Source: Gammaproteobacteria bacterium (lineage in GTDB: Bacteria; Pseudomonadota; Gammaproteobacteria; Pseudomonadales; Pseudohongiellaceae). Taken from it: a stretch of DNA of 64,000 nt. The notes under the pieces were generated by a model that did no database searches, was not told the origin of the DNA, and worked only from the letters and a program-made list of their open reading frames with translations. How positions within the stretch are numbered: the stretch's first letter is position 1; each line of letters opens with the position of its first letter. Of this stretch, positions 2,161 through 62,753 are shown piece after piece. Both the position numbers and the translations under genes were made by a program. The DNA lies in NCBI GenBank assembly GCA_012960305.1, contig DUBM01000017.1, positions 1 to 64,000 on the forward strand. The letters are read 5' to 3'.

Positions 2161-3834
2161 TTAATCTGGTAACGCAAACGCTGTCAGAGTGGTGCCTGAA
2201 GGTATTAAAACGTGCTGCTTTCCATCCAGTAAGTAAGTGGTCGCCGCTGCACCCCAAATCCGAGACCCGGTCTGATAATGCCAGAGATTTTTACCGGACT
2301 CGACATCGAAAGCCATGAAATTACCCTCATGGTCCCCCGCAAATACCAGCCCTGCCGCCGTGGTCATAACACCACCAAAAGTCGGTGAAGGGTAAGTAAA
2401 TTCCCAGCGCAGCTCACCGGTGTGAACATCCAATGCTCGCAAGGCACCGGAGCCCTGCTCACCATCGATGAAGACAACACCACCAAAAGAAGATTGGCCC
2501 GTAACATAACGTGGCTCTTCTGGAACAAAGGTTGCACAGGTCTCCCGTGCCGTAAGAATGAATAAATCCAGATCAGGGTAAAACGATGGTGGCATAAAAT
2601 TAGTACTGCCCCACGGGTCGGGTAGACAACCTTTGCTGCCATCATTCAGTACGATGGGGCGACCATCAGCGCCAATCTCTCGCGCCCAACTCGTTGCAGT
2701 AAAGGGTTTGCCTAAAAGCAATTCGCCGCTGACTCTATCCAACACATAGAAAAAACCATTACGATTTCCAACCATTACCACCCTTCGGTCTTGACCGTTC
2801 CACTCGATATCTGCCAGCACTGGCATGTGATTCGAATCCCAATCATTGATGTCATGGGGTGTAAATTGGTAGTGCCATTTCAATTCTCCGGTGTCAGCAT
2901 CAAGAGCAACTAGAGAATTTGAATAAAGGTTATCACCGAGGCGGGTGTCACCGAAATAATCTGGATTCGGATTTCCAACACCCCAGTAGATTAGATTCAA
3001 ATCCGGGTCATAGCTGCCATTCATCCAGGTTCCACCCCCACCGCGAGAGAGCACTTCAGGGTCTGGAGGCCAAGTCTCGCTGCCCGGTTCTCCCAGGGCT
3101 GGAATAGTATGAAAACGCCAGATTTGTTCTCCGGTAGCAGGATCATAAGCGTCGATAAAACCACGAGTCGCATATTCGCCACCGGAAATACCGACGATCA
3201 CTTTGTCATCTAACACTAGTGGAGCAAGAGTCGCGGAATAACCTGTTTTGTAGTCAGCCAGCTGGATGTCCCAAAGAACATCTCCTGTTCGACGATCAAA
3301 AGACACAAGGTGGGCGTCAAGTGTCACCATAAAGAGTTGATTTCCCAACATACCAAAACCACGATTAACCGGAGCACTGGCTCCATAGGTTAAATCATTG
3401 GGTAAATCACGACGGTACTGCCAAAAAGATCGCCCTGTACGTGCATCGATCGCCCAGGCGAAATTGTTCGAGCCAGTTACATAAAGAATGCCATCGTCCA
3501 TAAGCGGTGATGTTTCAAATCCACGGCCACGGGTGGTGGTCCCGGTTTGAAATGTCCATAGAGGTCGAAGTTGATCAACATTTTCCGGGGTTATTTGTTG
3601 CAGAGGACTATGTCGCTTCCCACTGTAGTCTCCTGAGAATGTGAGCCAGCGAGAGGGGTCATCAAAACCTTGCAAAATATCTTCATAGACCGGACCTGCA
3701 TTGTTTGGGATTCCTGAACTGGAAGCCGTATTGCTTTGCCCCATCAGACTGCTGCTCAACCCCAGACAGAGAGTGCTGAAAATCAATTTCCAAAATAATT
3801 TGTTTTGCATTTCGAATAAATCTCGCTTAGTCAT
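2161..3834 (-). CDS. PQQ-dependent alcohol dehydrogenase (methanol/ethanol dehydrogenase family)
   Basis: 557 residues: Sec signal, then an eight-bladed quinoprotein propeller with repeated blade motifs of the ALDADTGELKW type. The catalytic region reads TPHDINDWDS, placing Asp331 where the base of methanol dehydrogenases lies and Asp333 two residues on. This DxD pattern is associated with lanthanide-dependent XoxF-type enzymes, so rare-earth use is possible but unproven. There is no C-terminal heme domain. The upstream diheme cytochrome c gene ends 42 bases before it and is the likely electron acceptor. An internal ATG at 3810 is an alternative start that gives a shorter signal n-region; neither start has a strong RBS. 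Confidence 0.88.
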   Translation of the reverse strand: MTKRDLFEMQNKLFWKLIFSTLCLGLSSSLMGQSNTASSSGIPNNAGPVYEDILQGFDDPSRWLTFSGDYSGKRHSPLQQITPENVDQLRPLWTFQTGTTTRGRGFETSPLMDDGILYVTGSNNFAWAIDARTGRSFWQYRRDLPNDLTYGASAPVNRGFGMLGNQLFMVTLDAHLVSFDRRTGDVLWDIQLADYKTGYSATLAPLVLDDKVIVGISGGEYATRGFIDAYDPATGEQIWRFHTIPALGEPGSETWPPDPEVLSRGGGGTWMNGSYDPDLNLIYWGVGNPNPDYFGDTRLGDNLYSNSLVALDADTGELKWHYQFTPHDINDWDSNHMPVLADIEWNGQDRRVVMVGNRNGFFYVLDRVSGELLLGKPFTATSWAREIGADGRPIVLNDGSKGCLPDPWGSTNFMPPSFYPDLDLFILTARETCATFVPEEPRYVTGQSSFGGVVFIDGEQGSGALRALDVHTGELRWEFTYPSPTFGGVMTTAAGLVFAGDHEGNFMAFDVESGKNLWHYQTGSRIWGAAATTYLLDGKQHVLIPSGTTLTAFALPD

Positions 3835-9796: not shown

Positions 9797-10531
9797 TCAA
9801 ATAATCAGGAAATTAAAATAGGTATCTGGAAAAGGTTCATCCCGCAATGTGAAATGCCACCATTCTTCTATCAGTGGCTGAAACCCATGTTTTCTCATTA
9901 CTTCTTGCAACAGCAAGCGATTATTCTTCTGCTCAGCGCTCACTTTGTCACTACTTGGCCATGACAGTGGATCAAAATAATCATAGCCAGTGCCCATATC
10001 CAATTCGTTTCCAGATCCAAGATCAATCAAGGTAAGGTCGACAGTTGAACCTCGAGAGTGCCCTGAACGCTCTGAGATATATCCATCCCGAAACAAATTT
10101 TCTTTAGATACACCTGGGTAATAAGATTGCTTGTTTTTCACATCTGCTAGATCCCTGGCCCAACGTACAAAATGGTCCACCGCCTGCTGAGGACGATAAG
10201 CATCGAAAACTTTTAGACTGAATCCCAATTCCACCAATTCCCTTTGCACCTCCAGTAATTGCGCCGCCGCCTCATTACTAAGATAGAGCTTCTTAGCCTT
10301 ATAACCATCGATAACCGTTCCAATAAAATTATTGTTGGAGAAATAACGCAACTCTATATGAATTGCTGCTTGGCATGCCGGCATAATCTGAGCTAGATCG
10401 ACAAACCCATCTGGGATTCCTGCGCTCGTGTCGTTATTTTCGATACGTTCACTCCCGCTGCAAGATGTCAACAATATCGCTGCTACGAATGGCTGGAGAA
10501 CGCGGCGTAAATATTTATAATTGAGAGACAA
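9797..10531 (-). CDS. D-alanyl-D-alanine dipeptidase (VanX/DdpX-like), lipoprotein
   Basis: 244 residues, peptidase family M15D. The zinc and catalytic residues of VanX are all present with the right spacing: SGHSRGSTVD (His158, Asp165), EWWHF (Glu223, His226) and AYRP (Arg113). A lipobox, LTSC, places it in the envelope. It cleaves D-Ala-D-Ala, probably for peptidoglycan turnover or nutrition, since no vancomycin-resistance genes are nearby. The only in-frame start is TTG at 10531; an ATG at 10548 is out of frame. Confidence 0.88.
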   Translation of the reverse strand: MSLNYKYLRRVLQPFVAAILLTSCSGSERIENNDTSAGIPDGFVDLAQIMPACQAAIHIELRYFSNNNFIGTVIDGYKAKKLYLSNEAAAQLLEVQRELVELGFSLKVFDAYRPQQAVDHFVRWARDLADVKNKQSYYPGVSKENLFRDGYISERSGHSRGSTVDLTLIDLGSGNELDMGTGYDYFDPLSWPSSDKVSAEQKNNRLLLQEVMRKHGFQPLIEEWWHFTLRDEPFPDTYFNFLII

Positions 10532-12567: not shown

Positions 12568-13809
12568 ATGTCCAAGGACTCTCTAACTAGAAGAAGATTT
12601 CTCCAATCAACTGGCGCAGCCGCAATTTGGTTACCGACAACCGTGAAAGGTTATACCGCTAATGAAATGCACGCTCTATATGCCGACGGAACCATGCAGG
12701 AAGATGTATCCAAATGGGAGCTGGACACACCATCTCTGTGTGTCGATTTAGATGCGCTGGAAAGTAATATCGCGAAGATGCAGTCAACAACTTCACAAAA
12801 TGGCATAGCCAGCCGCCCCCACGCAAAAACCCATAAGTGCCCAACCATTGCACATATGCAATTAGACAGTGGTTCGGTAGGAATTTGCACCGCAAAAATT
12901 AGCGAGGCGGAAGCCATGTATCAACATGGCATCAATGAAATATTGATGACCACAACGAATGTCACCACCACTAAAATTCGCCGCGCCATGACTCTAAGAC
13001 AATCTTGCCAGGAATTTATTCAGGCAACAGATTCTCCAAGCAACGCGCGACTGCTATCTGAGGCTGCTCAAGCCATGGGAATAGTTGCTGATGTTGTAGT
13101 TGATGTAGATCCTGGCGGCCACCGAACAGGAATCACTGCCGGCACACCTGCGCTTGAGTTAGCCCAGCTTATCGATCAACTTCCTGGTCTCAGGCTTCGG
13201 GGATTGCTTTGCTACGACGGTGGTTCTCAACATGTTAAAGGATTTGAAAAGCGCAAGAACCAAACTTTAGAAAGATTGGTTGCTGCGACCAACACCCATG
13301 AGCAGTTCCAAGCTAGCGGACTAACCACTGAGGTTTTCAGCGGCGGTGGAACCGGCACTTACAATATTGACCACCAAACCCGCGGACTTACAGATATTCA
13401 GGTAGGCAGTTATGTATTTATGGATGCACAATACTTGGGTATAGGCGGCGAAGACAACATAGAGCACTTCACGGATTTTGAACCTGCCCTAACTATTCTC
13501 ACTACTGTTTTAAACGACCAATACGCTGGGCGCTGCACCACCGATGCTGGAGCGAAGGCTTGTACTATAAATCGACCATGGGCAATAATTAAAGGTGAGA
13601 GCGGTATCAGCTACTCTTCTGGATCAGATGAGTTTGGCACGGTTCGATATGAAGAAAATGCCTCACGCACTTATAAGGTTGCGGAAAAAATTGAGCTAAT
13701 CGTTTCTCATTGTGACCCTGTCGTAAACCTATATGATCACATGTACGCCATTCGTAATAATCAGGTGGAGGCAATTTGGCCCATCGCAGCAAGAGGCATG
13801 TCCGCCTAA
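12568..13809 (+). CDS. Tat-exported D-threonine aldolase/D-serine dehydratase-like PLP enzyme
   Basis: 413 residues. A twin-arginine signal (LTRRRFLQS, Arg 8-10) precedes a fold-type III PLP domain. RPHAKTHK carries the likely PLP lysine, Lys87. Near the C-terminus HCD (His381, Asp383) matches the HxD metal pair of D-threonine aldolases rather than the HxC pair of eukaryotic D-serine dehydratase, so a metal-dependent aldolase acting on D-3-hydroxy amino acids is favoured. A Tat signal implies folding with PLP in the cytoplasm before export. Good RBS (AGGAGCG). Confidence 0.85.
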   Translation: MSKDSLTRRRFLQSTGAAAIWLPTTVKGYTANEMHALYADGTMQEDVSKWELDTPSLCVDLDALESNIAKMQSTTSQNGIASRPHAKTHKCPTIAHMQLDSGSVGICTAKISEAEAMYQHGINEILMTTTNVTTTKIRRAMTLRQSCQEFIQATDSPSNARLLSEAAQAMGIVADVVVDVDPGGHRTGITAGTPALELAQLIDQLPGLRLRGLLCYDGGSQHVKGFEKRKNQTLERLVAATNTHEQFQASGLTTEVFSGGGTGTYNIDHQTRGLTDIQVGSYVFMDAQYLGIGGEDNIEHFTDFEPALTILTTVLNDQYAGRCTTDAGAKACTINRPWAIIKGESGISYSSGSDEFGTVRYEENASRTYKVAEKIELIVSHCDPVVNLYDHMYAIRNNQVEAIWPIAARGMSA

Positions 13810-41094: not shown

Positions 41095-42882
41095 ATGACT
41101 AATAATCTTCGTTTCTCCTCGATACTAAAGCTGTTCGTCGCTGCAAGTTCTACGTTGGTTGCCAGTAGTACCCTCGCACAAATTCTGGACTATGAAACCG
41201 TTACCGATGAGCTTCTGCAAAACCCGCCATCCGGTGACTGGCTAAGCTGGCGTGGACAACAGAATAGCTGGGGCTACAGCGAGTTAGATCAAATAAACAC
41301 AGAAAACGTTAATAAGCTGCAATTAGTCTGGTCCTGGGCAATGGATGATACCGGCGCTGGTCAAGCCGCACCTCTTATACATAATGGCGTTATGTTTCTT
41401 CCTGGTCCACGTGGTGTCATCCAGGCGCTGGATGCGGCCTCTGGCGATCTTATTTGGGAATACCGGCCAGGCATTACTCCGGTTGTTGAAGGTTCCGGCG
41501 CTGTCGCCATCGGTCCTGCACAACTCGGCGACGCGGCAATGCCTGCGACAGCCTATGCAGGTGTTGGTCGTGGAGTTCAAAAAAATATCGCTATCTATGG
41601 CGACATGATTTACGCCGCCACAGAAAATGCCAGCATAGTCGGAATCGACGTACGTACAGGAAGATTAGCCTGGGAGTCAGCTACTGCTGACCCTGCTTTG
41701 GGATATTTTTATACAGCAGGACCCATTGTTGCAGATGGTGTTTTGGTCACTGGAATCACCGGTTGTGGACGTTACAAGGAAGATGTTTGTTTCATAACCG
41801 GACACGATCCAAGTACTGGCGAGGAATTGTGGCGCACCGACACTGTCGCCCGACCCGGATCTCCCGGTGGCGACAGCTGGGGTGACCTACCCCTGCAGTT
41901 CAGAGCCGGTTCTGACTCTTGGGTCGCTGGCAGCTACGATCCGCAAACCAATCTGGTCTACATGGGAACATCTCAAGCCAAGCCTTGGGCCAGCGCAGTG
42001 CGCGGGACTGATGGCGACGCTCTCTACACTAATTCAACCCTTGCCCTAAATCCACAAACCGGTGAAATGGTGTGGTACTACCAACATCTTCCCGCTGAAA
42101 CTCATGACATGGATGAAGTGTTTGAGACAATCCTTATTGATATTGGTGGACGCCCAAGTCTTTTCAAAATGGGCAAGCTGGGAATTCTTTGGCAGCTCGA
42201 CCGTGCTAGCGGCGAAATAATTAAGGCTACCGACATCGGCTACCAAACCATCGTTAACGTTAATCCAACATCCGGACAAGTTAACTACCGTGATGGCATG
42301 ATGCCAAGAATCGGTCAGCAAATAGATATGTGCCCTAGCACTTCTGGTTTTAAAAGCTGGCGCGCTATGTCTTATTCGCCACAAACCAGCGCCTTGTATA
42401 TTCCAATTGCACTTAATTGTGAATTAGCGACCTTTGGCCCAACAGAAAAAGTGTTAGGCGGAGGTGGTGCCGGCCCAGTGCGGCGAATAAACTATCCTCA
42501 CCCCGCCTCGGATGACAATTTAGGTGAAATACTGGTTTTAGATGTCCCCAGTGGCGAAGTGAAGTGGCGCTATCGTTCACGTGCTCCGATCAACAGCGCC
42601 ACACTCACAACTGCCGGAGGCTTAATGTTTGCCGGCGACTGGAACAGAAACATGTTTGCCTTCGATGCAGAAAATGGAGACATTCTCTGGCAAACAAGAG
42701 TAACAACATCAGCACAGGGATTCCCTATTAGCTACGAAGTTGATGGTCGTCAATATGTCGCCCTCCCCGCCGGTATCGGCGGCGCAAGTTGGTCAGGCAT
42801 GCTCCCCCGGGATTTAGCTCCTGAATTAAAAAGTCCCAGAAACGGAAACTCGATGAATGTATTCGCTCTGCCCCAAAACTAA
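41095..42882 (+). CDS. PQQ-dependent alcohol dehydrogenase
   Basis: 595 residues with a Sec signal (cleavage near TLAQ) and an eight-bladed PQQ propeller. The catalytic segment LPAETHDMD puts Asp338 at the catalytic position and Asp340 two residues on, the DxD pattern linked to lanthanide-dependent enzymes. ITGCGRYKEDVC holds two nearby cysteines but not the vicinal pair of classical methanol dehydrogenases. No heme domain; a small cytochrome c gene follows immediately and is the likely electron acceptor. Confidence 0.88.
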   Translation: MTNNLRFSSILKLFVAASSTLVASSTLAQILDYETVTDELLQNPPSGDWLSWRGQQNSWGYSELDQINTENVNKLQLVWSWAMDDTGAGQAAPLIHNGVMFLPGPRGVIQALDAASGDLIWEYRPGITPVVEGSGAVAIGPAQLGDAAMPATAYAGVGRGVQKNIAIYGDMIYAATENASIVGIDVRTGRLAWESATADPALGYFYTAGPIVADGVLVTGITGCGRYKEDVCFITGHDPSTGEELWRTDTVARPGSPGGDSWGDLPLQFRAGSDSWVAGSYDPQTNLVYMGTSQAKPWASAVRGTDGDALYTNSTLALNPQTGEMVWYYQHLPAETHDMDEVFETILIDIGGRPSLFKMGKLGILWQLDRASGEIIKATDIGYQTIVNVNPTSGQVNYRDGMMPRIGQQIDMCPSTSGFKSWRAMSYSPQTSALYIPIALNCELATFGPTEKVLGGGGAGPVRRINYPHPASDDNLGEILVLDVPSGEVKWRYRSRAPINSATLTTAGGLMFAGDWNRNMFAFDAENGDILWQTRVTTSAQGFPISYEVDGRQYVALPAGIGGASWSGMLPRDLAPELKSPRNGNSMNVFALPQN

Positions 42883-47946: not shown

Positions 47947-49935
47947 ATGAAGAATGCAAAGCGAACTTCAATCTTAATTCTTTTAACCACACTCTCACTG
48001 TTAGCAGCTTGCAATTCTGACACCGATGATCAGGAAGTCAGTACATCATTGGATCAATCGCTCGGTCAATGGACTAGCCATGGCGCCGATCACTTCTCAT
48101 CAAAATATGCCGCCTTAGATCAAATCAATGCCGATAATTTTACCGATCTGGTAATCGCCTGGCGCTGGAAATCGGCAGACTATCGTGTCCCAGATGATCT
48201 GTTGTACTTCACCGGCGACTATCGAGCGACGCCTCTTATGGTTAATGGAGTTGTCTATCAAGCAACCAATCATGGACAAGTTGCAGCATTGGACCCAGCT
48301 ACCGGCGAAGAGTTTTGGGTTTTTGATCCTGAATCTTACAAACTCGGACAACCAAATTTTTCGCCTGCCCAAACGCGCGGCATAGAGTATTGGACAGACG
48401 GCGAAGTCGAAAGGATTTTTATCGCTACACTTGGCAAACAGTTAGTCTCAATAGACACCATCACCGGTTTACCCGATCCTGATTTTGGTGACAACGGCAT
48501 CGTTGATCTTTCACAAAATCTCGGCCGGCTTGAATTTGAAATGCGTAACATCACCCATGGTGCACCACCAATTGTCGTTGGCAATACGGTGGTCATTGGC
48601 TCCAAAATCTACGATTACATAATGAGTAATCGCAGTCCGCCTGGCCACGTTCGCGGCTACGATGCCCGTACTGGGGACTTTAAGTGGCGTTTCAATACCA
48701 TTCCCCAGCCCGGCGAGGATTTTAACGAAACCTGGGAAGATGGTAGCTGGCGCACTGCTGGCAATACAAATGTTTGGTCTTTCATGGCGGCTGATGACGA
48801 GCTGGGAATTGTTTATCTGCCCACTTCTACACCAACTAATGATTATTGGGGCGGCAAGCGCCTTGGAGAAAACCTCTACGCTGAAAGCATAGTGGCGCTA
48901 AATGCTGACACTGGCGAACGCATCTGGCATTTTCAAACTGTGCACCATGGACTGTGGGACTATGATGTAGCTTCGGCACCAAACCTTGTTGACGTAGTGG
49001 TCGACGGCGAACCCATCAAGGCACTTGCCCAAGTATCAAAAACCGGCTTCACCTATGTATTTGACCGGGTTACCGGTGAGCCAGTGTGGCCAATTGAAGA
49101 ACGAGCGGTTCCTCCCAGCACTGTTCCTGGCGAACGCGCTCACCCAACCCAGCCCTTCCCTACTAAGCCGCTACCTTTTGAACAAATAGGTGCAAGTGAA
49201 GATGATCTAATTGATTTCACGCCCGAATTAAGAGCTGAAGCACTGGATATCGCCAGTAGTTTTGTCCTCGGGGATATGTTCACTCCACCGATTGTCGGTG
49301 GCTCCGATGGCAAGCGTTCAACTTATGTAGTCCCCGGAGCCGGTGGCGGTGCTAATTTTCCCGGCGCTTCTATGGATCCGGAAACCGGTATTCTTTATAT
49401 TCAATCGGTGACTCGCCCGACGGGAATGGCCCTTGTTGCTCCCCCTAATGGGACTTCCGATTGGCCGTATGTAATTCAATATGATCGCAGTGGCGGCCCA
49501 AGAGGATTACCGTTACTCAAGCCCCCTTATCGACGAATTACAGCAATTGATATTAATACTGGGGAACATGTCTGGCAGATTCCCTTTGGTAAAGGGCCCA
49601 CGGATCACCCTGACATTGCACACTTGAATCTTGGCCCTTTGGGTTCAGTGTTTAATGATGTAGTTGCCGAAGGCGGCATACTGATCACTAAATCTCTTTT
49701 GATTTCCTACTTGGCTTCTAAAGATGAAATAGCCGAGGAGGCAGCTGGCTCCTTGCTGGTCGCCCATGACAAAGCTACCGGTGAACTCATGGGCGAAATA
49801 GAAATTGAGCGTCGCCTGCATGGTCCAATTATGAGTTATCAGCACGAGGGTCGCCAATATTTAGCCGTTGCAGGAGGTGGTCGTAATAATGATGCAGAAA
49901 TGCTCGTTTTCGCTCTACCCGACTCAAGCTTGTGA
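47947..49935 (+). CDS. PQQ-dependent dehydrogenase lipoprotein (glucose/quinate dehydrogenase-type propeller)
   Basis: 662 residues with lipobox LAAC (Cys22), so membrane-anchored. The propeller has HHGLWDYDVASAP, where Asp338 is the expected catalytic Asp and Asp340 gives a DxD pattern. HH-x-LWDxD is typical of membrane glucose/quinate-type quinoproteins, but this one lacks their N-terminal membrane domain. The substrate is unknown. It ends 56 bases before the bicupin gene and may be co-transcribed with it. Confidence 0.88.
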   Translation: MKNAKRTSILILLTTLSLLAACNSDTDDQEVSTSLDQSLGQWTSHGADHFSSKYAALDQINADNFTDLVIAWRWKSADYRVPDDLLYFTGDYRATPLMVNGVVYQATNHGQVAALDPATGEEFWVFDPESYKLGQPNFSPAQTRGIEYWTDGEVERIFIATLGKQLVSIDTITGLPDPDFGDNGIVDLSQNLGRLEFEMRNITHGAPPIVVGNTVVIGSKIYDYIMSNRSPPGHVRGYDARTGDFKWRFNTIPQPGEDFNETWEDGSWRTAGNTNVWSFMAADDELGIVYLPTSTPTNDYWGGKRLGENLYAESIVALNADTGERIWHFQTVHHGLWDYDVASAPNLVDVVVDGEPIKALAQVSKTGFTYVFDRVTGEPVWPIEERAVPPSTVPGERAHPTQPFPTKPLPFEQIGASEDDLIDFTPELRAEALDIASSFVLGDMFTPPIVGGSDGKRSTYVVPGAGGGANFPGASMDPETGILYIQSVTRPTGMALVAPPNGTSDWPYVIQYDRSGGPRGLPLLKPPYRRITAIDINTGEHVWQIPFGKGPTDHPDIAHLNLGPLGSVFNDVVAEGGILITKSLLISYLASKDEIAEEAAGSLLVAHDKATGELMGEIEIERRLHGPIMSYQHEGRQYLAVAGGGRNNDAEMLVFALPDSSL

Positions 49936-49991: not shown

Positions 49992-50714
49992 ATGACAATG
50001 TCTCTAATACACAAACTAATTAAATTTTGTTGCCTGCGCAATTGCCTGCTGTTAACTGCTGTAGCGGGGGTATTTTTAATCCAAACCCTTACTTTCCCTG
50101 CGAAGGCGCAAGAGAATGAGTTCATCGGCGAGAAAATTGTTCATCTATTACAAGAGCCCCGTCACCGGACTGTGCACGCGCAGGACGGGCTGTTCTTGCT
50201 GGATGTACAGGTGAATCCCGGAGACACCAGCTTTGCCCATATCCATGACCAGGCTATTTTGTTGACTTACATTAGCGCTGGTAGCGGCCCTAGAGACGGT
50301 TCTGTAAGCACTAATATCGATTATGCCTCTACACCTCACACCCACAAGGTCGCAAATGAAGGCCCAGGGCTGATGCGAATTATTGCTTTCGTGAATAGCG
50401 GGCTCGCAGTCTCAGACAGCAACAGTGATGAACCTTCAGGCATGAATAGTGAACCAGATATTGAGAATCCCTGGTTTCGGTCCTACCGAGTAGAGTTGCA
50501 AGCCGGTGAGCAAACCAATATCCAAACCCATAACAATAATACCGTGATTGTTCAAGGCAGTGACGGCCTTGTGCTTGTTACCCGTGCCGACGGTGTCGCA
50601 GCAGAGCTAGATGCTCCAGGCGATTGGACTTGGAGAGACCCGAATTCTCCATTCATAGTTCGCAACGTGGGCCAAACTTCTGTGTTCGTAGCTATAAATG
50701 AAGGCCGCCAATAG
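49992..50714 (+). CDS. Exported bicupin-like protein
   Basis: 240 residues with a hydrophobic N-terminal signal (cleavage near AKAQ) and two cupin-like repeats. Candidate metal-binding His residues are in TSFAHIHDQ, STPHTHK and NIQTHNNNT. No enzymatic signature strong enough to name. It follows the PQQ lipoprotein gene by 56 bases. Confidence 0.75.
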   Translation: MTMSLIHKLIKFCCLRNCLLLTAVAGVFLIQTLTFPAKAQENEFIGEKIVHLLQEPRHRTVHAQDGLFLLDVQVNPGDTSFAHIHDQAILLTYISAGSGPRDGSVSTNIDYASTPHTHKVANEGPGLMRIIAFVNSGLAVSDSNSDEPSGMNSEPDIENPWFRSYRVELQAGEQTNIQTHNNNTVIVQGSDGLVLVTRADGVAAELDAPGDWTWRDPNSPFIVRNVGQTSVFVAINEGRQ

Positions 50715-50766: not shown

Positions 50767-50810
50767 TACACACATAAAAACCCTCCAGTTGGAGGGTTTT
50801 TATGTGTGTA
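50767..50810. terminator. Bidirectional terminator, 20-bp perfect stem
   Basis: Perfect inverted repeat with a 4-base loop (arms 50767-50786 and 50791-50810, core CCCTCC/GGAGGG flanked by five A and five T). It separates the plus-strand bicupin gene from the minus-strand ThDP operon. Confidence 0.9.
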
Positions 50811-50868: not shown

Positions 50869-51348
50869 TTATTCCTCAGGCACATTAAAAAACTCCACCA
50901 TGTAATTCTGATAAGGTCCTTCCAAAAGAAAGTTATTAAATATTTCATGAAGAAGGTTAACCGCTGTTTTTGCAGCATCGCCACCATCACCGGATTGAAA
51001 ACCAATACTAATCGACAATTTCTCCTGACGGTTCTTGCAAGAAAAGGTAAAACGCTGGTCATCTAAGCGGCGATGGGACGGTATAGATTCCGCAGAACGC
51101 TGATGCAAGAAACTACGAAAATCTTTATCCATCTTGGAACGGAATGGCACTGCTGGTAAGACATCTTTAATTTCTATTTCTGATTTCTGAGTATTCAAAC
51201 GTAAATTAAAAGGCATCTCTGCTAACCAGTGAAAACGATAGTTCACACTGCCGATACTAGCCTGCTCCGCTAAGCTAAAATTTTGAAAGATGCCCCTGTC
51301 GGCATAATTTTGCAACTCTGCGCTCACTGCCTTCACAGTTTCTTGCAT
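50869..51348 (-). CDS. Hypothetical protein, last gene of the ThDP-enzyme operon
   Basis: 159 residues from ATG 51348; a GTG at 51369 is in frame but has no RBS. There is no signal peptide and no recognised domain. It starts 30 bases after the stop of the Tat-exported ThDP enzyme, so it is the third gene of that operon. Being apparently cytoplasmic, it might be an accessory or maturation factor, but this is inference. Confidence 0.7.
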   Translation of the reverse strand: MQETVKAVSAELQNYADRGIFQNFSLAEQASIGSVNYRFHWLAEMPFNLRLNTQKSEIEIKDVLPAVPFRSKMDKDFRSFLHQRSAESIPSHRRLDDQRFTFSCKNRQEKLSISIGFQSGDGGDAAKTAVNLLHEIFNNFLLEGPYQNYMVEFFNVPEE

Positions 51349-51378
51349 TAACTTATCTCGCCTTTGCACTAATAGAAT

Positions 51379-53355
51379 CTACTTATAATAAGCCAATGCA
51401 CCGGGAGCAAAATGTCGCGGCATTGATGGTGGAAATTCATTAGTCCAAAATTCCTTTTTCCCCTGGCAATTAATTAGTGTGGAAATTCCTTCCGTTGCAG
51501 CCAGCTTGTAACCCCTTTCTAGGGCAGGAGTGAACTGCTCAGGGCTAGTTACATATTCACCATTACAGCCAAGCGCTTCAGCGATTTTTTCATAGCGTAG
51601 GTTTTCTTGAAACAAATACATATGTTGGGCTCTCGTGGCACCACGGCCTCCCCCGGATGTCCACACTCCCCAAGCATTATTATTATATACAATCATAACC
51701 GCCGGTATACGGTACTTGCCCAAGGTGTCAAATTCCATAATTGAGTAAGCTGCCCCGGCATCACCAGTAATCCCAATAACTGGAGAACCCTTGTACGGTG
51801 CTTGAGGGCCAATACCATGTTGCACTGCAGCGCCTACACCTACGGTATAGCCTACGTCTGGGCCAATGGCACCATACTGATAGGCTCCATTACAAATTTG
51901 CCCTGGGCGGTAGGCTCGAAGATAGCGACGAGTATACCGACCAATACCATAACCGCCTGACACGACAGCGGTTTGTTGACGATCGATATCACCGTTATAA
52001 AGAAAATCACTAAGTTGGCGACCCATAACAGCTGGATGGATTGATTCTGTATCTGCACTGTATTTCAAACCAAGCCGATAGTACTCCTCGCTTTGATCAT
52101 CAAACGCCTTACGCGCAGCAGCAAGCTCGTCTCTCCAACCTTGTCGCGTTCTTGAGGGCAACGCATCTTCCAAGGCTTCAAGCGCAGCTTTCTCTGAGCT
52201 AACGATGCCTAGATCAATAGGTACATTACGACCAATGTCAGTCGCATCAGGATCAATACGAATCCAGCGAGCATCAGGGCCGAAAGCAAACTCACCGATA
52301 GATGGCATGCAATATTGACCGATTAAGATAACCAAATCCGCACTGCGGATAGCATCGAGCCCGGTAGAAGCAGAAAGCGCATGACCATCGGAAAAGTGGC
52401 CACGTTGAGGTGCGGATTCCACCACCGCAATGTCATTTTTTTCCGCAACTCTCAACAATGCTTCCCAGGCTTTATCGTAAAAAACTCCTGTGCTTGCAAC
52501 AATCATCGGGCGAGAGGCTTGCTGGACCATTTCTACAGCGCGAGTAATGTCAGCAGGATTAGGATGGGCTTTTGATTCAGTACGATAACGAGTCTTGTCG
52601 TAGTAATACTGCAATTCACCTGGCTCCTCGAAACGCGCGCGGGAAATTTCACCAGGAAAGTCTAAATGAACCGGTTTTGGTACTCCCGTCTTAAGCTGAC
52701 GGAATGCATAGGCTGAATATTCATAAATTCTGTTTGGGGTAATCATCCGCTTACCCCATTTTTTCAAGCCATCAGTTTGTGACTGCTGATAGGCAGTTTG
52801 AATCCCATGTTCCGTATCATCCTCACCAATGGTCTTATTACTGGCGATCACCAACAAAGGAGACCGGGCCGCATTGGCAGCACCAATATTCATAATCATA
52901 TTAGTGAAACCTGGCCCCTCTGTACCAGAGGTTGCTGCTATCTCACCTGTGACACGAATAAAACCATCCGCCGCTGAAACCATATTACCTTCACAACGTC
53001 CGCCGTAGCTTGGAATTCCTTCAGCAGCTATGGCATTAATCATATTGTAGTTACCCGGGCAGCAGAAGAACCCAGCAACACCTTCATCACTGCAAAATTT
53101 CGCAAACACTTCAGCCCCACTCATAGGAAAGTTTGCCGGCTTAGCAGCTTCTGCCAAAGTGCGCGGAATTTCTTCGGGAATCTTGATTCCTGGGCCATCT
53201 TGATCTTGGGCCTCAGAGTTTTCACTTTGCATTAGTGCTGCAGCGCCAGCTCCAGCAATTGCAGTACCTTTTATGAAATTACGCCGAGATACAACGGACT
53301 CTTGTTCAGCACTGTTGGAAGCTTTCGATTTTTTAGCACCTTCTTTTTTAGCCAT
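51379..53355 (-). CDS. Tat-exported thiamine-diphosphate-dependent enzyme
   Basis: 658 residues from ATG 53355 (RBS AGAGGAATTC); an in-frame start at 53406 is rejected. A twin-arginine signal, SRRNFIKG (Arg 24-25), is followed by the acetolactate-synthase-like fold: Glu122 in GRCEGNMV as the ThDP-activating Glu, and the ThDP/Mg site [13 protein letters not shown]...YNNNAWG. Export of a ThDP enzyme is rare. A cytochrome c gene ends 16 bases before it, suggesting that it oxidises or decarboxylates a 2-oxo substrate in the periplasm and passes electrons to the heme. Confidence 0.85.
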
Positions 53356-53371
53356 GAGAATTCCTCTGAAT

Positions 53372-53821
53372 CTATTCTTCTGTGGGTCGAGTTGCTTTAG
53401 GTCCAATATTTAAGATATGAGCAACAATCTGCCAGATTGTTTGATTATCAATTGTGTCTTCAAATGGAGGCATTTCTAAGCCAGCACCAAATTTAATGCT
53501 GTGGAATATATGCAGTGGTGAATCACCATAAAACCATGTATCTGGCGCTGTAAGATCAGCAGCAATGAAATCGATGTTCGCCAAGGCGCGGCCGTCGGCG
53601 TCATGACAAGACTGACAATTTATAAGGAAGTAACTCTTGCCTCTGATAGCCGCAGATTTGGAATAGACCATCGGATCAATTTCAGTAGTCATGTCGACAG
53701 CTAAAGACGTTTGGTAAATGGAGCTCAGCAAAAAAGGTGCAATTCCGACTAGTATCCGAAATAACCGCAGGAGATAGGCCCTTATTTGTGGAAAAAATTT
53801 CATAGGAGATTGCTGATTCAT
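53372..53821 (-). CDS. Small cytochrome c, partner of the ThDP enzyme
   Basis: 149 residues with an N-terminal hydrophobic signal and a single CQSCH motif, with a likely axial Met in [11 protein letters not shown]. It is 16 bases upstream of the Tat-exported ThDP enzyme. ATG 53821 is preferred over ATG 53803. It is presumably the electron acceptor of that enzyme. Confidence 0.85.
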
Positions 53822-54030: not shown

Positions 54031-54063
54031 TAAAAAAGGAGGAACTGCTGCCAGTTCCTCCTT
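54031..54063 (-). terminator. Rho-independent terminator of the PQQ dehydrogenase gene
   Basis: AAGGAGGAACTG (54036-54047) and CAGTTCCTCCTT (54052-54063) form a perfect 12-bp stem with a 4-base loop. On the minus strand it is followed by six T. Confidence 0.88.
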
Positions 54064-54116
54064 CCTAGAACACTTCGTGAGCCCTAGCCCCAACCGCTAG
54101 TGCTCAGAATTTGCCT

Positions 54117-56141
54117 TTAGTGGGCATCTCCACCTGCATCAGCGGCACCTGGCAGAGCCATTGCTGTTAATGAGGAAGATGTTTGTAGCATGATGTATTG
54201 ATGACCATCATGTACCCACGAGCTCATGCCATAGCTGCTACGAGATGGCGCTTCGATCTCGCCAATGATTTCACCGCTAGACTTATCAAGCCCCCAGAGC
54301 ATTGGAGTGCCATCTGTAGCTGTATCTGAATAGATCAGCATATTAGCAGTCACAACCATTGGCACTAATGCGCCAGTACCTGTGTTACCTACCTCCTCAA
54401 GATCAGCGCCAGCTGCTTCAAAAGCATTTAAGTTGCGCTGAGAAGTTTCACCAGTTGGAATCATCCAAGCATGATCTCCGCTGTTCATATCGATAGCAGT
54501 AATACGGCTATAAGGCGGTTTGAACAGTGGAACACCAGCAGGATGGCGTGGTGGACGCGCTGTCGCACCAGCTACGCCGTTAGCATACTGCGATGTTGTT
54601 GCACCAGTAGAATCAGGAAACAACAAGTCAGCCTCTTCACCAGGAATCAAGCGCAGTGCGAAACAGTTCTTATGTGAAGAAACGTAAAGCATGCCAGTAG
54701 TAGGATCAGCCACAGCAGGAGCTGTAATATTTGCACCACCCGCTCCACCTGGGCAGTTCATGGCTGCATATTTGCCCATTGCATTGTCAGCATGGATTGG
54801 CGGATTAAAGAGGCCACCCATTACATAGTCATCCAAAGCTGCAATCGCATCTGCACGTAGTTTCGGAGTGAAATCAACCAAATCGTCTTCAGTAACACCC
54901 TGCATTTCATAAGGCTCAGGTTTAGTTACGTGGGGCTGAGTTGGCGACAATACTTCACCTGGAACAATTGAAGGAGGTACAGGACGCTCAACGATTGGCC
55001 AAATAGGCTCGCCGGTGAGGCGGTTGAATGCATAAACCCAGCCCTGCTTTGTAACTTGCATGACACTAGGAATCGCACCTTGTCCATCAACATTCAAATC
55101 CAAAAGAACTGGTGCAGTGGGATTATCAAAGTTCCAAATCTCGTGATGGACCATTTGGAAGTGCCATGCTCTTTCACCAGTTCGGGTATCGAGGGCAATG
55201 ATTGCAGCACCATAGAGATTATCGCCAGGACGGAAACCGCCGTAGTAATCAATAGTCGCGCTATTGGTTGGAATAAAGACAAGGTTATTTTCAGGGTCTG
55301 CTGACAGAGGTGCCCAAGAAGATACATCACCAGTCCATTCCCACGCATCATTTTCCCAAGTCTCATGACCATATTCACCAGGCTTAGGGATTACGTTGAA
55401 TTTCCATTTAAAATCGCCAGTTCTAGCATCATAAGCAAGAATGTCACCTGGCACGTTTTCGATACGGGCTTGATGGTAACCTTGCTCAGCAGAATTACCT
55501 ACAATAATTGTATCGTTAACAACAATCGGCGGAGATGAAGAAGTAATGTATCCAGTTTCTAGTGGAATGCCATTATAAGGATCGTAAGGGTGGCCAAGAT
55601 CAGCTAGTAAATCTACAACGCCAGTTTTCGGAAATCCGTCGACGGGGATCTGACCGCCGAAACCTTCAATCGGAACACCGGTATCGGCATCCAAAGCGGT
55701 TAGAAAGAACGCTGGAGATATCATGTAGATCACACCGCGTCCGTCGATTTCTGCATAGCCAACGCCTTTACCGTAATCGGCACGCATTGAGTATTCGCCA
55801 CGTGGAGTATTCGGTTCACGATAAGACCAAATAGTTTCTCCGTTTTTGGGATCGATTGCGATTACGTGACGGTTATAACCAGCCACAGTAAAAAGTTTGC
55901 CATCGATATAGGAAGGAGTGGAGCGACCACTCACAGCGCCAAAACTGGCCCCATCCCATTCCCAGGCAACTTCAAGATCATTAAAATTGTCTGCCGATAT
56001 TTCTGCTGCTGGTGTATACCGCGTATGAGCAAAATCATTGCCCAAGGTAAACCACTCAATCGAATCTTGAGCGACCAACAAACTTGAAAAACCCAAAAAC
56101 ATTAAGCCTGTAAGAATTCTTCCCAATTTTAGAGTATGCAT
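54117..56141 (-). CDS. PQQ-dependent dehydrogenase with Asn at the catalytic Asp position
   Basis: 674 residues with a Sec signal (cleavage near LLVAQ) and a PQQ propeller. The catalytic segment reads HHEIWNFDNP: Asn337 stands where the paralog at 47947 has Asp (HHGLWDYD). The second acidic residue, Asp339, is kept. This may be a family-specific variant, a changed reaction or lost activity. The C-terminus is Gly/Ala/His-rich (DAGGDAH). RBS AGGAGAGG. It lies 191 bases downstream of the TonB receptor stop on the same strand and may be expressed with it. Confidence 0.85.
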   Translation of the reverse strand: MHTLKLGRILTGLMFLGFSSLLVAQDSIEWFTLGNDFAHTRYTPAAEISADNFNDLEVAWEWDGASFGAVSGRSTPSYIDGKLFTVAGYNRHVIAIDPKNGETIWSYREPNTPRGEYSMRADYGKGVGYAEIDGRGVIYMISPAFFLTALDADTGVPIEGFGGQIPVDGFPKTGVVDLLADLGHPYDPYNGIPLETGYITSSSPPIVVNDTIIVGNSAEQGYHQARIENVPGDILAYDARTGDFKWKFNVIPKPGEYGHETWENDAWEWTGDVSSWAPLSADPENNLVFIPTNSATIDYYGGFRPGDNLYGAAIIALDTRTGERAWHFQMVHHEIWNFDNPTAPVLLDLNVDGQGAIPSVMQVTKQGWVYAFNRLTGEPIWPIVERPVPPSIVPGEVLSPTQPHVTKPEPYEMQGVTEDDLVDFTPKLRADAIAALDDYVMGGLFNPPIHADNAMGKYAAMNCPGGAGGANITAPAVADPTTGMLYVSSHKNCFALRLIPGEEADLLFPDSTGATTSQYANGVAGATARPPRHPAGVPLFKPPYSRITAIDMNSGDHAWMIPTGETSQRNLNAFEAAGADLEEVGNTGTGALVPMVVTANMLIYSDTATDGTPMLWGLDKSSGEIIGEIEAPSRSSYGMSSWVHDGHQYIMLQTSSSLTAMALPGAADAGGDAH

Positions 56142-61160: not shown

Positions 61161-62753
61161 ATGAAAATACTCTCTCAACAATGGCAAGACTATCTGAATT
61201 CTCCTTTCTCTCGACGGCACTTGCTGCGACTGGGCGCGCAGCTTTCTGGTGCTCTGGCTCTTGGAGCAATGCCGGGATTACTGCATGGTGCTGCACGTCG
61301 GTTGACAAGTTTGCAGGCGGACCCATTTACTCTCGGTGTTGCTTCCGGCGATCCCACTGCAGACTCGGTAGTGCTCTGGACTCGACTGGATAATGATATT
61401 TTGCGAGAAATGGGAGCCGAGCTGGATACCATCGAAATCGCCTATGAAATTTCCACTTCAGAATCTTTCAGGAATGTGCTTCGTCAGGGCGTTATTATCG
61501 CACCTGCTGAATTGGGTCATTCAGCCCATGCTGAGGTTCGAGGTCTACAGGCGGACACAGTCTATTTTTACCGTTGGCAATTAGGCAATATCACCAGCCC
61601 AATCGGAAGAACCAAGACAGCAGCAGCTGCCGATGCGGATATCCAACAACTCAGATTTGCCGTCGCCTCCTGCCAGCAATATGAACACGGTTATTTTACC
61701 GCATACCAACATATGGCAGATGAACACTTTGATCTGATCGTGCACCTCGGTGACTATATTTACGAAAAAAGTTGGGGCCAAAACCTCGTTCGCGCCCACG
61801 AAGGTCCTGAAATTATAACACTTGCTAACTATCGTGCTCGATACAACACTTACAAGTCTGACCCGGATCTGCAAGCAGCTCATGCATCTGCTCCGTGGAT
61901 TGTCACCTGGGATGACCACGAAGTGGATAACAATTATGCGGCTGATATTGGAGAAGATGATCAAACTCCTGAGCAACTGCTAATGCGCAGAACCGCGGCA
62001 TATCAAGCCTTCTATGAATTTATGCCGATCCGTCTACCAGTGGGCAGGCAAGGCCCAGATATGCCCATCTATCGCCGGCTGCGGTTCGGCAAGTTAGCTG
62101 AATTCAATGTGCTCGATACACGCCAGTATCGTAGCGATCAAGCCTGTGGCGACGGTCGAAAACAGAGCTGTGCGGAACACCTTGATAGTAGCAGAACCCT
62201 GCTAGGTGGGGCGCAAAAAGAGTGGCTCTACAATGGCCTCGCGACGGCCGATGCTACCTGGAATGTATTGGCACAGCAGATAATGGTAGCAAGTCTTCGC
62301 TCAGTTGGTGACGCAGGCGAAGAGCTATGGCCCATGGATCTGTGGGATGGCTATCCGTTCGAACGACAGGAATTACTGAATGTCCTTGACCAAGCAGCAA
62401 CGCCTAATCCTGTAGTTCTCACTGGCGATATTCACTCTAATTGGGCAGCCAACCTACAGTTGGATTTCGATAATGAAAATTCGAAAGTCGTAGGCTCCGA
62501 ATTTGTCGGAACCTCAATTACTTCAGGCGGCGATGGTAGAGACATGTCAGATTATGGAACTGCACTGTTAGATAATAACCCACACGTGAAATTTTATAAC
62601 GCGCAACGCGGCTATTTATGTGCAACGCTAACACCTGAGCTATGGAAAACTGACTATAAAATTTTACCCCTAGTCACCCAAGCCGGCGCTGACATCAGTA
62701 TACGCAAAACCTATATCACTGAAGCTGGCAACCCCGGCGTACAAGAAGGATAA
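61161..62753 (+). CDS. phoD: Alkaline phosphatase D (PhoD) family, Tat-exported
   Basis: 530 residues. A twin-arginine signal (SRRHLLRLG, Arg 18-19) leads to the PhoD N-domain (FTLGVASGDPTADSVVLWTRL). The metallophosphatase core follows, with HLGDYIYE, WDDHEVDNNYA and TGDIHSNW holding the Asp/His metal ligands. PhoD cleaves phosphate mono- or diesters in the periplasm to recover phosphate. No Pho box was identified. Confidence 0.92.
   Translation: MKILSQQWQDYLNSPFSRRHLLRLGAQLSGALALGAMPGLLHGAARRLTSLQADPFTLGVASGDPTADSVVLWTRLDNDILREMGAELDTIEIAYEISTSESFRNVLRQGVIIAPAELGHSAHAEVRGLQADTVYFYRWQLGNITSPIGRTKTAAAADADIQQLRFAVASCQQYEHGYFTAYQHMADEHFDLIVHLGDYIYEKSWGQNLVRAHEGPEIITLANYRARYNTYKSDPDLQAAHASAPWIVTWDDHEVDNNYAADIGEDDQTPEQLLMRRTAAYQAFYEFMPIRLPVGRQGPDMPIYRRLRFGKLAEFNVLDTRQYRSDQACGDGRKQSCAEHLDSSRTLLGGAQKEWLYNGLATADATWNVLAQQIMVASLRSVGDAGEELWPMDLWDGYPFERQELLNVLDQAATPNPVVLTGDIHSNWAANLQLDFDNENSKVVGSEFVGTSITSGGDGRDMSDYGTALLDNNPHVKFYNAQRGYLCATLTPELWKTDYKILPLVTQAGADISIRKTYITEAGNPGVQEG

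Follow-up and report, generated by a model that had tools for sequence, protein, structure and literature searches.

Can a thiamine diphosphate (ThDP) enzyme work outside the cytoplasm and pass its electrons to a c-type cytochrome? The question is raised by a three-gene locus in a stretch of 64,000 nucleotides, hereafter the window, from a gammaproteobacterium of the family Pseudohongiellaceae (contig DUBM01000017.1). The locus encodes a small cytochrome c, a ThDP-dependent enzyme with a twin-arginine translocation (Tat) signal, and a 159-residue protein. To our knowledge, ThDP enzymes are generally regarded as cytoplasmic. Judged by sequence comparison, the three genes form a unit that is conserved and portable, occurs in some marine and soil bacteria, and has the ThDP enzyme at its centre; the enzyme itself is probably exported by Tat, and we put at about 0.5 the probability that the unit makes an exported ThDP-dependent oxidoreductase, with the third protein as its chaperone and the cytochrome c as its electron acceptor. 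The original prediction, made from the letters of the sequence, described three minus-strand genes separated by 16 bases (cytochrome and enzyme genes) and 30 bases (enzyme and third genes), and both coordinates and gaps hold:

53372..53821, minus strand: cytochrome c gene, 149 amino acids, small monohaem class I type with an N-terminal hydrophobic export signal (PF13442; signal read by eye)
53603..53617, minus strand: haem-binding motif CQSCH (sequence)
51379..53355, minus strand: gene for the ThDP-dependent enzyme with Tat signal, 658 amino acids, ATG start (three TPP domains)
53203..53355, minus strand: N-terminal region of the ThDP enzyme with the twin-arginine signal (alignment, TAT_signal match)
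52990..52992, minus strand: Glu122, presumed cofactor-activating glutamate (invariant in 45 of 45 aligned sequences)
51676..51765, minus strand: GDAG...NNN, residues 531-560, presumed ThDP/Mg2+ motif (Asp532, Gly534 and Asn558-Asn560 invariant)
50869..51348, minus strand: third gene, 159-residue protein, proposed export chaperone (linkage, predicted fold)

Conservation of the three-gene unit

Relatives of the enzyme were taken from a scan of genome contigs (the best 80 of 140) and from whole-genome draws, whose counts include each draw's own centre genome; the locus sample is skewed to close relatives, and related genomes are non-independent data points. For linkage, the 140 enzyme-bearing loci less 36 duplicate places gave 104 distinct loci, only six paralogue-control loci having been left out of the recount, and a partner gene was counted when it lay on the same strand no more than 2.6 kb from the enzyme gene. 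The 104 loci comprise 97 with the Tat motif, five that are N-terminally truncated and two without the motif.

The three-gene neighbourhood, which the original prediction had proposed as a check, is indeed conserved. A related cytochrome c gene is found in 80 of the 97 Tat-bearing loci and the third gene in 84 (83 downstream, one upstream). Eleven of the remaining loci end within 800 bases downstream, among them L078, which has 779 bases and no third gene and is counted as lacking room; the other two (L044, L049) are without the third gene. Of the two partners, the 159-residue protein shows the closest linkage to the Tat signal, a point missed in the earlier reading. Near six other ThDP-enzyme matches, neither partner profile has a match within about 1.5 kb. 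In the 297-genome draw, the enzyme occurs without the third protein only in G414 and G559, and the third protein occurs alone only in G514, where the C-terminus of the enzyme is encoded at the very edge of the contig, with 33 bases separating it from the third gene. Two Tat-ThDP copies, each with its own third gene, were seen in G295 (L134, L135) and G1017 (L125, L140), both from the Hydrogenedentota draw, with mixed bins not excluded.

The Tat signal

The twin-arginine motif occupies enzyme residues 23-30, and Arg24, Arg25 and Phe27 are invariant in all 45 aligned homologues. Paired arginines with a hydrophobic stretch are present in 80 of 83 orthologues, the remaining three being truncated or frame-broken. 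A simple Tat rule (twin-arginine motif, then an uncharged hydrophobic stretch) is passed by 42 of the 45 members, against 103 of 9000 shuffled N-termini, and by four of the 44 open reading frames of the window, including the ThDP enzyme gene; the three failing members have the paired arginines with a short uncharged stretch. The Pfam TAT_signal match of the window enzyme (E 1.2e-4, 22.3 bits) falls just short of the cut-off of 22.7 bits, and this 21-position model is insensitive here, matching seven of the 45 members at E 0.1. The same genome encodes TatC, and also CcmF. The claimed signal is present by motif and alignment and conserved across phyla, and the enzyme has the motif, the uncharged hydrophobic stretch and a Tat system in its genome, with a borderline Pfam score. 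The other window genes passing the simple rule (12568-13809, 61161-62753, 9797-10531) have the motifs TRRRFLQ, SRRHLLR and a weak LRRVLQP.

Phyletic distribution and homologues without the Tat signal

The best 80 of 140 relatives include 14 from OM182-type Gammaproteobacteria (83-91% identity), many from Acidobacteriota (Holophagales, Thermoanaerobaculia, Bryobacterales, Blastocatellia, Vicinamibacteria), and others from Hydrogenedentota, one Gemmatimonadota and one Opitutales. Among the whole-genome draws, that of Acidobacteriota has the enzyme in 24 of 297 genomes and that of Hydrogenedentota in 5 of 68; it occurs in 2 of 398 genomes drawn from the window's phylum and in 1 of 240 drawn from the class to which G725 belongs, namely in G725 itself. 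A looser single-sequence search of the window's order gave 7 of 293 genomes, three of them (the window genome and two others) above 50% identity. Within the phylum of the window, the enzyme is thus uncommon and scattered. Holophagales/Thermoanaerobaculia sequences form the sister group of the window's clade in the tree (97/92), a placement that fits transfer between phyla.

Homologues without the Tat motif were seen directly in G559 (L118/L144) and on plasmid p3 of Rhizobium leguminosarum GLR17 (L090:8905-10746, 52% identical); a third case, in G414, is inferred only, its N-terminus being missing. The loci of G559 and Rhizobium both lack the third gene, which is likewise absent in G414, whose enzyme is 89% identical to that of G559. 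No related cytochrome lies within 2.6 kb in the Rhizobium locus, where some 8.9 kb of sequence is available on either side, or downstream in G559, where the contig ends 436 bases upstream. The Rhizobium gene belongs to a nonribosomal peptide synthetase-like (NRPS-like) cluster that also has short-chain dehydrogenases/reductases, a TauD-type dioxygenase and a serine-tRNA ligase; here the same enzyme may have a biosynthetic use that is so far unexplored. Both Tat-less homologues fall inside a clade (100/100) in which the seven other members sampled have Tat motifs; they are long branches whose placement the tree program marks as unsure. Since they nest among Tat-bearing clade members, a joint loss of export and of the third gene is probable, and it may have happened twice.

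Fold and family placement of the enzyme

The original prediction of an acetolactate-synthase-fold enzyme is borne out. Pfam TPP_enzyme N, M and C domains match the window protein well above cut-off and are present in all 45 aligned members, which also share invariant Glu122, Asp532, Gly534 and Asn558-Asn560. We take Glu122 to be the cofactor-activating glutamate and GDAG...NNN to be the ThDP/Mg2+ motif; three TPP domains, a conserved Glu and the GD...NN motif together place the enzyme in the acetolactate synthase/pyruvate oxidase fold.

The family is harder to name. Of the 53 NCBIfam models matched by the enzyme, 25 were listed, and its score is under the cut-off for every one of these, including the pyruvate oxidase/ubiquinone-dependent pyruvate dehydrogenase equivalog PRK09124 (90.9 bits against 792) and the equivalogs for 2-hydroxyacyl-CoA lyase and oxalyl-CoA decarboxylase (136.7 against 600 and 146.4 against 557 bits). 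Assignments to acetolactate synthase, oxalyl-CoA decarboxylase or sulfoacetaldehyde acetyltransferase were rejected on scores far under the NCBIfam cut-offs. The nearest solved enzymes by profile are 2-hydroxyacyl-CoA lyase/synthase, BbmA, oxalyl-CoA decarboxylase and benzaldehyde lyase/formolase, followed by glyoxylate carboligase, acetolactate synthase and pyruvate oxidase (191.8 bits for PDB structure 8vza against 103.5 for pyruvate oxidase 1pow). Foldseek with the enzyme model, which is of moderate confidence (pLDDT, the predicted local distance difference test, of 73, with low-confidence stretches), gives the same ranking (7ayg, E 6.1e-28, 23% identity), and VIA-align gives a tie among several of these families. 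The original prediction had pictured a periplasmic oxidative decarboxylase or dehydrogenase and had pointed to pyruvate oxidase structures for comparison; its periplasmic half agrees with the Tat signal, but its oxidative half gains nothing from this ranking, in which non-oxidative lyases come ahead of pyruvate oxidase.

Attempts to read a substrate from the neighbours were given up, as cyclase, amidohydrolase, presumably penicillin-acylase-like, and molybdenum-hydroxylase genes are each restricted to few lineages. An FMN-dependent 2-hydroxyacid dehydrogenase is a neighbour at one locus only (L005). Upstream of the unit, three OM182-type genomes (L010-L012) and several Bryobacterales (L038-L047) have a gene for a cyclase-like hydrolase (PF04199 in the single case tested), a possible substrate clue.

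The cytochrome and the third protein

The small cytochrome c with CQSCH is also as first described: the motif occurs together with a Cytochrome_CBB3 (PF13442) match of 38.8 bits (cut-off 27), which makes it a class I cytochrome c, and a Met-containing EMPPF loop can be read by eye. Its gene lies upstream in 53 loci, mostly OM182, Holophagales and Bryobacterales, and after the third gene in 27, mostly Blastocatellia and Vicinamibacteria. The cytochrome is of a dihaem form at most loci of Hydrogenedentota and at the Opitutales locus. Five loci (L133, L121, L072, L077, L080) have the third gene and sufficient room with no related cytochrome nearby. In the Solibacter-like loci of Acidobacteriota a divergently transcribed CXXCH protein (L053:3807-4493, L056:7447-7896, L058:7306-7911, L067:7505-8212) replaces the usual cytochrome c; that of L058, the only one tested, has a helix-hairpin-helix domain by Pfam.

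The 159-residue protein has no visible signal peptide, and the Pfam search gave no credible family, in line with its original description as unknown. A Methyltransf_7 match (19.1 bits against a cut-off of 29.8, in one of 54 members) was dismissed as chance, and none of the 54 members matches the TorD/DmsD or NapD Pfam families at E 0.1. Its predicted fold may be similar to that of secretion chaperones. Foldseek with this protein alone ranked T4 MotA and topoisomerases at the top, hits that are not credible by E-value.

Proposed mechanism and alternatives

The Tat system transports folded, cofactor-loaded proteins. The enzyme would accordingly bind ThDP, fold in the cytoplasm and leave via Tat, a step well supported by sequence. 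The 159-residue protein, to go by its linkage and predicted fold, would act as a dedicated cytoplasmic chaperone, guarding the Tat leader or the N-terminal region for as long as the enzyme is still being loaded with cofactor and assembled. Once in the periplasm, the enzyme would attack a 2-oxo acid, an aldehyde or an acyloin, and two electrons would pass from the ThDP-bound carbanion/enamine to the cytochrome c of the unit, and from there to the terminal oxidase. It is the gene linkage that suggests this last step: most loci have a cytochrome gene next to that of the enzyme, which speaks for electron transfer. A stricter version, in which the carbanion of a flavin-free ThDP enzyme directly reduces a periplasmic c-type haem and Tat is served by a dedicated proofreading chaperone of the type III chaperone fold, we consider quite unlikely as a whole.

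Since quinoprotein-like genes adjoin the unit in the window and in seven other loci, a lyase that feeds a quinoprotein is a real alternative, though we doubt it. The enzyme would be an exported non-redox lyase or carboligase, cleaving acyloins, 2-hydroxy acids or 2-oxo acids, while a separate periplasmic quinoprotein oxidises the aldehyde product or the substrate precursor and delivers electrons to the cytochrome c. Such an enzyme would suit the lyases that are its nearest relatives by profile and Foldseek, the homologue that sits in an NRPS-like cluster without a redox partner, and the quinoprotein-like genes that are at most about 1.2 kb away on the same strand (window, L015, L017, L018, L049, L050, L059, L070) or divergent (L053, L067), which were grouped by BLAST with a Pfam check on the window's two only. 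The cytochrome, however, is linked far more often (80 of 97) than the quinoprotein; several relatives have intervening genes, and in the window a hairpin divides the quinoprotein gene from the trio. With four hairpin sites in the terminator scan of the region against 3.1 expected by chance, that hairpin is weak evidence alone. The two hairpins flanking the trio are:

54033..54066, minus strand: terminator-like hairpin separating the trio from the quinoprotein gene upstream of it (terminator scan)
50777..50800, minus strand: hairpin AAAACCCTCC-AACT-GGAGGGTTTT past the third gene (by eye; the terminator scan did not report it)

The third protein might instead be a YbjN-like regulator, or a small subunit that hitchhikes out of the cytoplasm with the enzyme; this too seems rather improbable, as it has no credible Pfam domain and is absent in the Tat-less homologues though the enzyme core is kept, which would be unexpected for a catalytic subunit. 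Very remote is the notion of a vestigial Tat-like motif on an ordinary cytoplasmic acetolactate-synthase-like protein beside an unrelated cytochrome. The near miss of the window protein in the Pfam Tat model, matched by seven of 45 members, would fit it, but the motif is invariant over several phyla, both partners are linked to it, and in two lineages it is absent together with the third gene.

The window has several quinoprotein-like beta-propeller genes. Two of them (47947-49935 and 54117-56141) match PF01011 strongly and also an "acido-empty-quinoprotein" model, far under NCBIfam cut-offs; 2161-3834 and 41095-42882 were recognised by eye only. Convergent with the trio, positions 49992-50714 encode a 240-residue secreted protein with no Pfam match and, as a guess, of cupin-like nature; related proteins are encoded no more than 6 kb from the unit in 12 loci including the window, all of OM182 type.

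Significance and relation to known systems

If the exported enzyme donates to its own cytochrome, it would open a new electron route from carbon to the respiratory chain without substrate uptake, and its presence in OM182-type marine bacteria and many Acidobacteriota would give this route ecological reach. If the third protein is a chaperone, a secretion-chaperone fold would join Tat export, and the Tat-less homologues offer a natural control. Should both parts of the flavin-free version be true, a single unit would provide both a new point of entry for electrons in the periplasm and a Tat chaperone of a new structural class. A partial literature search by titles and abstract beginnings found no paper on an exported ThDP enzyme, which is not proof of absence, and none joining secretion chaperones with Tat chaperoning.

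The enzyme shares its three-domain ThDP fold with the 2-hydroxyacyl-CoA lyase/oxalyl-CoA decarboxylase/benzaldehyde lyase branch (8vza, 7pt2, 7ayg, 2ag0), but only the enzyme of the unit has a Tat leader, a cytochrome c and a third gene. Members of that branch are cytoplasmic and act on coenzyme A (CoA) thioesters or aromatic acyloins; outside the cytoplasm, CoA substrates are unlikely. Pyruvate oxidase and PoxB, the quinone-linked pyruvate dehydrogenase (1pow, 3eya), have the ThDP fold as well and are weaker relatives. They are the functional precedent for a ThDP enzyme donating electrons to respiration; as flavin adenine dinucleotide enzymes, they work in the cytoplasm or on its side of the membrane and reduce O2 or ubiquinone.

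No sequence similarity was found between the third protein and type III secretion chaperones or YbjN/DR_1245 (1ry9, 1xkp, 2bsh, 4h5b, 6vu7); unlike for the former, no type III system is implied here, and the partner is a Tat substrate. Tat maturation proteins serve molybdoenzymes, and the ferredoxin-type fold of NapD differs from the others (PMC10609526). With TorD/DmsD and NapD, the Tat redox-enzyme maturation proteins, the third protein would have its job in common, that of a chaperone which is specific to its system and whose gene is next to that of a single Tat-exported enzyme.
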